The notes under the pieces: model-generated
What the model saw: only the letters and a program-made list of their open reading frames with translations
Databases searched by the model: none
What the model was told of the DNA's origin: nothing
Position numbers and translations under genes: made by a program
NCBI GenBank assembly: GCA_022013685.1
Contig: JAKLPV010000054.1
Location: forward strand, 1-64,000
Length of the DNA: 64,000 nucleotides
Origin: Anaerolineae bacterium
GTDB taxonomy: Bacteria > Chloroflexota > Anaerolineae > Anaerolineales > Villigracilaceae
Direction: 5' to 3'
Part shown: piece after piece, positions 9,488-14,501 of the stretch
Position numbering within the stretch: the stretch's first letter is position 1
How the letters are laid out: each line of letters starts with the position of its first letter

Positions 9488-10132
9488 TTATACGAACATT
9501 TGCGTATCGATTTTGAGATTTTCGATTAAGTTGACAGAAATACGCGCAGAAAGTAACCAGCCACGCGGGTCGCGGCCGTAGGCCAGACGCCTGGCCCAGG
9601 TGGTCGGGCAGGCGCGTAAGCCGGCGGCATCCAGCGGCCGGGGCTGTTGGACATTGAATCCAGCCGATTGCAAACGTTCATACACCCGCCAGGTTCCGGC
9701 TTCCAGGGCCCAGCCTGCCTCCGCCAGCGCGCCGCCGTTCAGGCGGATGGTCAACTCCGCGTTCGGGCGGGCTACCCGCGCCAGCCCGTCCAACAGCGCC
9801 AGGTCACCGTCCAGCAAACCGTGCAGCAGACTGCCCCAGGGGAAGTTGATCGTGATCTGGGCTGCCAGCCCATCCAGGCCGGCGGGCAGCGATTGGGCGC
9901 TGGCGATCAAATACAAGGCGTTGGCCGGGCAGTCGCGTGAGTGTTCGCGCAGGTTTTCGCGGCAGGCATCCAGGCCGATGAAGAAATCCTCTCGGTTTTG
10001 GGTCGACATGTGGCGCACAAAGCGCCCATCGCCGGTGCCCAGGTCGAGCCAAATATTTTTGTATCCCGCAACCCGGCGGGAAAATTCATCTGTGGTCAAT
10101 TGAAGGGGCGTTTTGCCCCGTATGCTCTCCAT
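9488..10132 (-). CDS. 16S rRNA (adenine-1408-N1)-methyltransferase, KamB/NpmA-like
   Basis: A SAM-dependent methyltransferase of 214 residues. KamB and NpmA methylate N1 of A1408 in the ribosomal A site and confer broad aminoglycoside resistance. The match is strong along the whole chain: IRGK at the start, D30 in WLDLGTGDGR (SAM site), D55 in FIGLDACRENLRE, the FPWGSLLHGLL motif with W99, and TTWARRLAYGRDPR with W179, R182 and R187. The two Trp residues correspond to those that sandwich A1408. The acidic residue in the A-E-S-L-P motif of NpmA is Gln here (Q80). AAGGAG precedes the ATG but lies partly in a hairpin. It is preceded by a 225-nt structured leader. Activity is inferred, not shown. 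Confidence 0.82.
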   Translation of the reverse strand: MESIRGKTPLQLTTDEFSRRVAGYKNIWLDLGTGDGRFVRHMSTQNREDFFIGLDACRENLREHSRDCPANALYLIASAQSLPAGLDGLAAQITINFPWGSLLHGLLDGDLALLDGLARVARPNAELTIRLNGGALAEAGWALEAGTWRVYERLQSAGFNVQQPRPLDAAGLRACPTTWARRLAYGRDPRGWLLSARISVNLIENLKIDTQMFV

Positions 10133-10140
10133 GTTTTTCT

Positions 10141-10178
10141 CCTTCTGTTCGTGAAATGAAATAAAAACGAACAGAAGG
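10141..10178 (-). promoter_or_regulatory. Hairpin occluding the methyltransferase ribosome binding site
   Basis: CCTTCTGTTCGT and ACGAACAGAAGG form a perfect 12-bp stem with a 14-nt loop. The AAGG of the AGAAGGAG ribosome binding site for the KamB/NpmA-like gene is inside the 3' arm. This is the geometry used in translational attenuation, although no ligand or ribosome-stall trigger is proven. Confidence 0.65.
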
Positions 10179-10205
10179 CATGGAGGACCACGGGCAAACG
10201 CAAAC

Positions 10206-10319
10206 AGACGGCTGCGTCAGGCACCGTCTAGGTCATCAGGATTTGGTTTTTTACGATTTAGGGGAAATGCAAAACAGGCCCGTTGGGCCTTGCAGTAACT
10301 TCGCTCCGATCCGGGAGCG
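10206..10319 (-). ncRNA. Three further hairpins of the methyltransferase leader
   Basis: On the minus strand the leader folds into CGCTCC/GGAGCG (10302-10319), a 10-bp two-part hairpin TGCAAGGCCC/GGGCC..TTGCA (10268-10294), and AGACGG/CCGTCT (10206-10229). None is followed by a T-tract. Together with the 10141-10178 hairpin they occupy most of the space between the promoter and the start codon. Confidence 0.5.
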
Positions 10320-10321
10320 GC

Positions 10322-10354
10322 TTAGCAGGGTGGTCGAGGAAGAAACTGGTTCAT
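10322..10354 (-). CDS. Possible 10-residue leader peptide of the methyltransferase mRNA
   Basis: ATG at 10354 begins a short frame, MNQFLPRPPC, ending in TAA just before the first leader hairpin. It starts only a few bases after the predicted transcription start, so it would be translated as a leaderless or near-leaderless ORF. The PRPP run is a kind of sequence on which ribosomes tend to slow. No homologue is known to me; the frame could be accidental. Confidence 0.3.
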   Translation of the reverse strand: MNQFLPRPPC

Positions 10355-10363
10355 GATAAAAAA

Positions 10364-10372
10364 ATTATAGCA
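10364..10372 (-). promoter_or_regulatory. Extended -10 promoter of the methyltransferase
   Basis: The minus strand carries TGCTATAAT, a full extended -10 consensus; no good -35 is seen at 17 bp. The expected start is near 10357, giving a 225-nt 5' leader for a 645-bp gene, and separating it from the small gene ending at 10393. Confidence 0.55.
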
Positions 10373-13598: not shown

Positions 13599-13658
13599 GC
13601 CGTTATTTTACTTGACACAAGGGCAAAGCGGGGATTGTGGATGGGGTACAATTCTCCC

Positions 13659-14501
13659 ATGCGCAAGACAAGACTCGATCTTTTACTGATGGAACGCGGC
13701 CTGGCCGAGAGCCGCGCCAAAGCCCAGGCCATTATCATGGCCGGGCAGGTGCGCGTTAACGGGCAGGTGGCCGACAAATCTTCGTCCAGTTTCCTGCCCG
13801 ATGTGCAGGTGGATGTGGATTCCGGGCCGCGCTTTGTCTCGCGCGGCGGCGAAAAGCTGCTCGGGGCGCTGGAGACTTTTGTCGTTGACCCCAGCGGACT
13901 GACCTGTGTTGATGTCGGCGCTTCGACAGGTGGATTTACAGATTGCCTACTCCAGCACGGCGCAGCCAGGATCTATACCATCGATGTTGGCAAAGGCATC
14001 CTGCACTGGAAAATCCGTTCTGACCCGCGCGTGATCGTCATGGAAGAGACCAATGCCCGTTTCGTCGAATCGCTGCCGGAGCCGGTGCAGTTGGTGGTTT
14101 GCGATGCCTCGTTCATTTCATTAAAAACCCTTTTACCGGTGATGAAGAAATGGCTGACCCCCGAAAAATCGCTCCTCCCACTTTCGCAGAAAATGGAAGG
14201 AGCCGCAGGGGGGCTGATCACCCTCATCAAACCCCAGTTCGAAGCCGGGCGCAAGGAATCGGCCAAACACAAGGGCGTTATCCGCGACCCTGAAATTCAT
14301 GCCCGTATTCTGCTCGATATTTTGCAATTTGCGCTGGATAACGGCTATGGCGTGCGCGGACTGGCAAAATCATCTTTGTTGGGGCCAAAAGGGAATGTCG
14401 AGTTTTTGGCCTGGCTGGATTTAAATCAAGCCACCAGCGCAGACATACCCACACTGGCGGCTCAAGTTTTGGGAAGTCCGCCACCTGAAAAAGCGGAATA
14501 A
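13659..14501 (+). CDS. tlyA: TlyA family rRNA (cytidine-2'-O)-methyltransferase
   Basis: In Mycobacterium TlyA 2'-O-methylates 16S C1409 and 23S C1920 and creates sensitivity to capreomycin. The 280-residue protein starts with an S4 RNA-binding domain (RLDLLLMERGLAESRAKAQAIIMAGQVRVNG), followed by an FtsJ-like methyltransferase domain with CVDVGASTGGFTDCLLQHGA (SAM site), VIVMEETNAR and VCDASFISLKTLLP, then IKPQFEAGR. ATG 13659 is the family start; the in-frame ATG 24 bp upstream overlaps a TACAAT promoter-like box. The usual C-terminal recombination-like neighbours are absent. Confidence 0.9.
   Translation: MRKTRLDLLLMERGLAESRAKAQAIIMAGQVRVNGQVADKSSSSFLPDVQVDVDSGPRFVSRGGEKLLGALETFVVDPSGLTCVDVGASTGGFTDCLLQHGAARIYTIDVGKGILHWKIRSDPRVIVMEETNARFVESLPEPVQLVVCDASFISLKTLLPVMKKWLTPEKSLLPLSQKMEGAAGGLITLIKPQFEAGRKESAKHKGVIRDPEIHARILLDILQFALDNGYGVRGLAKSSLLGPKGNVEFLAWLDLNQATSADIPTLAAQVLGSPPPEKAE

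Follow-up and report, generated by a model that had tools for sequence, protein, structure and literature searches.

By analogy, the conceptual relatives of the leader described here are erm attenuation, prfB, and the frameshifting of ermC. The prfB gene uses a +1 frameshift and senses RF2. An erm-type attenuator has a short leader ORF and a hairpin that sequesters the Shine-Dalgarno sequence, with the effect of a drug on the ribosome as the signal; in the ermC leader, ketolides induce a frameshift, and this error of decoding can turn the gene on (cited in PMC10959953). In the tail of AMD1, a eukaryotic gene, ribosomes that have read through pause at a second stop (PMC13025110).

We analyzed a window of 64,000 nucleotides (the whole stretch of DNA considered here) from a Chloroflexota assembly of 5.28 Mb in 239 contigs. 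The window gene encodes a predicted m1A1408-type 16S rRNA methyltransferase, for which A1408 is the presumed target, and the region upstream of it has the erm layout, that is, a leader ORF and a hairpin that sequesters the Shine-Dalgarno sequence. As in erm and ermC, the signal would be the effect of a drug on the ribosome. Unlike in those leaders, however, the conserved stops in the window appear to be the sensor, and coding sequence is conserved on both sides of them. As in prfB and AMD1, the efficiency of termination at a stop would control the output, and the UGA C context is shared, but neither of those is a resistance gene. We found no report of such a leader device in the open literature and, as far as that literature shows, the leader is undescribed. 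We propose that expression of the A1408 methylase is gated by stop-codon readthrough in the leader, with aminoglycosides as the probable inducer, and we consider this proposal likely, if well short of certain. The features, in order from the putative promoter to the gene, are:

10364 to 10369, minus strand: -10 element TATAAT (extended, TGCTATAAT), 9 nt before the leader ATG; the motif is found in relatives.
10322 to 10354, minus strand: leader ORF1, MNQFLPRPPC, and stop 1 (TAA, 10322-10324); RPP[C/W/..]-stop or a close variant in 38 of 39 leaders.
10217 to 10321, minus strand: ORF2, AAPGSERSYCKAQRACFAFPLNRKKPNPDDLDGA, and stop 2 (TGA, 10217-10219, then C); conserved KPTPDDLDGA-stop.
10269 to 10289, minus strand: terminator-like hairpin GGCCCAACGGGCC-TGTTTTGC (also given as GGCCCAACGGGCC-TGTTTT), between the stops; present in relatives.
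10133 to 10216, minus strand: ORF3 region, in frame past stop 2, RSRLFAFARGPP..., with ARGPP at 10181-10195.
10141 to 10178, minus strand: Shine-Dalgarno hairpin, 5' arm 10167-10178 and 3' arm 10141-10152 (from fold z and covariation).
10139 to 10144, minus strand: Shine-Dalgarno sequence of the methyltransferase, AAGGAG (from leader sequence and fold).
9488 to 10132, minus strand: predicted A1408-type 16S rRNA methyltransferase gene (PF24675), ATG start, 214 amino acids, short beta2/3-linker clade (from profile, alignment, and AlphaFold model).

Over residues 3-196, the protein scored 186.5 bits (E = 5e-55) with the NpmA profile of Pfam-A (PF24675), for which the cut-off is 60, and its predicted fold, of the class I SAM type, is closest to NpmA and KamB; the first-pass annotation, which had assigned it to the KamB/NpmA family, was thus right about the family. 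The models for named enzymes in NCBIfam were not reached: the best families were WarA (112.6 against 305), KamB (98.6 against 350), NpmB (84.2 against 460), and NpmA (74.4 against 470), each under its curated cut-off. The protein is a distant relative of these four and not any one of them. Its relatives by sequence among solved structures are NpmB1, Kmr, NpmA, KamB, UncKam, and CacKam. An AlphaFold2 model built from 16 clade members (pLDDT 91.4) aligned with NpmA at a Z of 26.4, KamB at 26.2, NpmB1 at 24.2, CacKam at 24.1, Kmr at 22.9, and UncKam at 21.0. The top 15 matching chains were all A1408 enzymes (Z of 21 to 26) and the next was TrmB (Z of 18.5). The reading frame runs from 9488 to 10132 as annotated, and D30, D55, W99, and W179 sit where they had been placed; these four and R182 (the equivalent of R206) are invariant across the 16 members, with the Asp pair of the SAM pocket and the base-flipping Trp pair kept. 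The alignment had been said to extend along all 214 residues; it does so through residue 199 or so, near which the family match stops, while the last 15 or so residues lie outside it. The enzyme is a new member of a known family and lies in a separate clade, which is set apart in our tree with support of 100/91. It resembles NpmA, KamB, CacKam, and Kmr in its fold, SAM residues, Trp pair, and TTWARRL motif, and differs from them in having a shortened beta2/3 linker and a leader with two in-frame stops.

The first-pass annotation also held that a Glu replaced by Gln at position 80 was the only change from the known enzymes. In fact, the basic beta2/3 docking linker is also shorter than that of NpmA by about 8 residues, a deletion shared by all members of the Chloroflexota clade. 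Q80 by itself does not look alarming. In the alignment, Kmr, an active enzyme, also has Gln at this position, and the column is variable within the clade. In NpmA, the E88A mutant stays active, whereas E94A of CacKam loses activity (PMC4705659). As Kmr has Gln and NpmA E88A is active, the Glu at E88/E94, which contacts the adenine of SAM in most members, is not strictly defining. For the linker, the comparison is with CacKam, where the basic residues R73, K77, and K80 are each essential (PMC4705659). The shortened linker retains R62 and an invariant R66, and the rest is lost; R66 may stand for one of the essential CacKam residues, and the other two, K77 and K80, are without a counterpart.

The expected chromosomal Chloroflexota host was borne out, with an accessory pattern: the clade of the window enzyme is in 42 of the 152 genomes of the host's taxonomic family, and 40 of 400 phylum genomes hold a PF24675 member that clears the Pfam cut-off. 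The view that known members are limited to actinomycetes and plasmids was too narrow, as Kmr comes from Sorangium (PMC4705659) and relatives turned up in Bacillota, Acidobacteriota, WWE3, and others. At the sensitivity used, no relative of the window protein was found in viral contigs or plasmids, and no aminoglycoside gene cluster surrounds the gene in the window. By Pfam domains, the neighbors are common metabolic genes (for an FAA hydrolase, an esterase, a thioesterase, a racemase, a GHMP kinase, and UbiA) and a gene for an FtsJ/S4 protein. This last (13635-14501, plus strand) lies 3.5 kb from the methylase and looks TlyA-like by eye; TlyA of other bacteria methylates C1409, which adjoins A1408. 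Because the host's own 16S rRNA is absent from the assembly, we checked position 1408 in relatives of the host, where it is an A.

In the window, ORF1 (ATG AAC CAG TTT CTT CCT CGA CCA CCC TGC TAA), stop 1, ORF2, stop 2, and ORF3 share one frame across the leader (10133-10354, minus strand), which then runs into the hairpin. ORF2 comprises 34 codons without a start codon and ends in KKPNPDDLDGA (nucleotides RKKPNPDDLDGA, then TGA); directly after stop 2 (UGA C) the sequence continues RSRLFAFARGPPC.... A consensus promoter scan found no full sigma-70 site. Of 39 leaders, 23 have a motif of the type TGnTAnnnT ahead of the ATG (at a distance of 6-9 nt in 22 of these). An Rfam search of the leader returned no known RNA (only weak microRNA and scaRNA matches under the gathering scores).

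To describe conservation, we used 39 non-duplicate leaders of the window's clade, from several Chloroflexota families. A stop after LDG[AG] is present in every one of them, and in 38 it is in frame with a stop after [RQ][PS]P[C/W/R/S/N], at a spacing that varies from 18 to 42 codons; the sole exception is L166, in which RPPC is out of frame. Stop 1 is TAA in 29 leaders, TAG in 8, and TGA in 2. Stop 2 is UGA in 39/39, and the next base is C in 36. Past stop 2, AR[AG]PP follows in frame in all 39, with synonymous changes at third positions. From stop 1 to ARxPP, and leaving aside stop 2, the 1847 codons of the leader frame include no stop, whereas the other two frames contain 54 and 102 in 1769 codons; between the two stops this is partly so by definition, as the nearest upstream stop was taken, but that this stop should be the RPP stop is an independent result. 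ORF2 lacks any ATG, GTG, or TTG in 31 leaders. The ratio pN/pS comes to 0.21 over the final four codons of ORF1 and to 0.19 over the final twelve of ORF2; it is 0.49 for ARxPP and the five codons that follow, the later of which overlap the hairpin. This is the pattern of a translated sequence, beyond what RNA structure alone would give. A degenerate DNA pattern for KPTPDDLDGA-stop hit 8 of 400 phylum genomes, always at the methylase (the reversed control gave 0), and the Thermomicrobiales-like relatives L122 and L125 carry the same leader.

With respect to the leader, the methylase start can fall in any of the three frames, at a nearly constant 46 to 64 nt from ARxPP, so translation of the enzyme begins at a start of its own; a leader-methylase fusion by readthrough was ruled out on the same grounds. 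A reassigned genetic code was also ruled out, because all three stops are used at conserved positions.

The leader is predicted to fold with a z of -4.3, and the hairpin buries AAGGAG. In the window the start codon is buried too: a further 7 bp at 10179-10185 pair with the start codon region of the methylase. Since a MAFFT alignment of the hairpin that included the window mixed two registers, we counted pairs in 18 relatives as a subset and, separately, in leaders anchored at their Shine-Dalgarno sequences. In the subset, 97.2% of pair cells are paired, 13 cells are changed on both sides (shuffles had a mean of 4.1, and 0 of 500 were as high), and the covariation score is 0.224, against at most 0.119 when the hairpin is slid; with anchoring, the pairing is seen in nearly all 39 leaders. 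The terminator-like hairpin was found in 23 of the 33 leaders with room for it, as compared to 9% of shuffles, and is missing in some.

We propose that a ribosome would, by default, translate M..RPPC and terminate at stop 1. The terminator-like hairpin between the stops could then form and the Shine-Dalgarno hairpin would stay shut, so that little enzyme would be made. With an aminoglycoside in the decoding site, stops would be misread, and some ribosomes would pass stop 1 and melt the terminator-like hairpin. A ribosome that also passed the leaky UGA-C of stop 2 would arrive at ARGPP, next to the 5' arm of the hairpin over the Shine-Dalgarno sequence, where it may pause at the PP motif and where its presence would free the methylase start. 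Methylation of A1408 would block the drug and restore fidelity, and the leader would be switched off.

Several observations weigh against this scheme. Amikacin does raise stop readthrough in E. coli, but the reported gain is modest, about 2-fold (PMC10959953), and having to pass two successive stops would multiply a number that is already small. In a fold model, masking a ribosome footprint at ARxPP raised the mean unpaired fraction of the Shine-Dalgarno sequence from 0.08 to 0.26, a partial release, and the same masking in the window leader lowered it from 0.50 to 0.20. As a footprint at ARxPP releases the Shine-Dalgarno sequence partly at most, the ribosome would have to advance further. The shortening of a linker that is essential in CacKam, the out-of-frame RPPC of L166, and the leaders that lack the terminator-like hairpin also count against the proposal.

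One alternative is a conventional erm-like attenuator, with a drug-dependent pause on RPPC or its stop, and with ORF2 and ORF3 either reached by reinitiation or acting only as RNA. The RPP-stop and PP motifs do look like pausing sequences, and the hairpin over the Shine-Dalgarno sequence is the erm layout. Nevertheless, a shared frame is unnecessary for reinitiation, and ORF2, mostly without a start codon, stays in phase with ORF1 over a wide range of spacings and shows synonymous change, so we regard such an attenuator as unlikely. Another possibility is that the leader senses a shortage of release factor or a general loss of fidelity, and not aminoglycosides specifically. UGA C is the context by which prfB senses RF2, and stop 2 is always UGA and mostly UGA C. 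However, stop 1 is mostly UAA, which both release factors read, and the output is a member of an enzyme family that protects against miscoding drugs; sensing of this kind seems to us rather unlikely. That the leader is a decayed gene or a product of chance, with the methylase expressed constitutively, is very improbable, since its frame, stops, peptides, and hairpin are all conserved across the 39 leaders of several families, even though the promoter scan gave no full consensus.

A different doubt concerns the enzyme, which might methylate another rRNA site or a tRNA and so not be a resistance enzyme. This would accord with the loss of docking-linker residues in the whole clade, including the counterparts of K77 and K80 of CacKam (PMC4705659), and with the lack of conservation at the E88 position. 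But both flipping Trp residues, the SAM residues, and R182 are invariant, the nearest folds are NpmA and KamB, the patchy distribution argues against a housekeeping role, and relatives of the host do have A at 1408. We consider another target to be rather improbable, and we favor a readthrough-gated A1408 methylase.

Interrupted reading frames also occur in related genes. In a second clade (support 100/99), an in-frame stop lies inside the gene itself, as D[VI]G-stop, just before motif I. The D[VI]G-stop (WarA-type) loci, 34 in all, are:

L050-L054, L056-L067, L069-L077, L079, L080, L084, L085, L087, L090, L105, and L114.

Their hosts are Chloroflexota MAGs, a MAG labelled Rokuibacteriota, Nocardia (eight loci), and Mycobacterium aquaticum. 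The sequence ahead of the stop is M-R-x-x-x-G-[KR]-x-x-x-[ED]-V-D-[VI]-G, which puts the stop about 15 codons after the start; it is TAA in 22 loci, TAG in 11, and TGA in 1, and 16 of the 34 have no ATG, GTG, or TTG between the stop and motif I. The gene of this clade in Nocardia wallacei corresponds to WarA. Because clinical isolates show a strong association between carrying warA and resistance to amikacin (PMC12488653), such an interrupted gene is apparently functional. WarA of N. wallacei and the window gene are alike in belonging to the same enzyme family and in having a reading frame interrupted by a stop, but WarA has the stop inside its own gene (DIG-stop), whereas those of the window gene lie ahead of it in a separate leader, and its linker is shorter. 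The NCBIfam model for WarA (NF051863, 190 positions) starts at motif I and covers only the part after the in-frame stop. WarA as annotated is thus probably missing the N-terminal hairpin that the family conserves.

Five Acidobacteriota genes (L081, L086, L089, L092, and L099) carry MI[KR]xIRGST[IV]-TGA-TAA-LxxExF...PYRR near the start and resume in another frame with VV[VI]D[IL]GTGDG, so that all five combine tandem stops with a +1 shift, which falls immediately ahead of motif I. KamB, NpmA, CacKam, and Kmr fall outside the interrupted-frame clades in the tree. We also observed one or two in-frame N-terminal stops in L078, L098, L109, and L127 (from Chloroflexota, KSB1, and a MAG labelled Proteobacteria), and L041 and L042 (in G145 and G161), which are DVG-stop genes of one genus, have a second, common in-frame TGA in mid-gene.

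A broader proposal, to which we would give even chances, is that A1408 methylases in several phyla are kept unreadable by conserved stops or a frameshift, that miscoding caused by the drug turns them on in a self-limiting way, and that this arrangement arose more than once. Leader stops (in Chloroflexota), an in-gene stop (in Chloroflexota, Nocardia, and Mycobacterium), and tandem stops plus a +1 shift (in Acidobacteriota) would be its variants.

If the proposal is true, it would offer a direct molecular test of translation errors as a bacterial signal for aminoglycosides, and it would account for the silence of a costly ribosome methylase at times when it is not needed. Annotation pipelines truncate or discard such interrupted genes, as the NCBIfam model for WarA exemplifies, so counts of silent methylases among environmental and clinical Actinomycetota and Chloroflexota may be too low.
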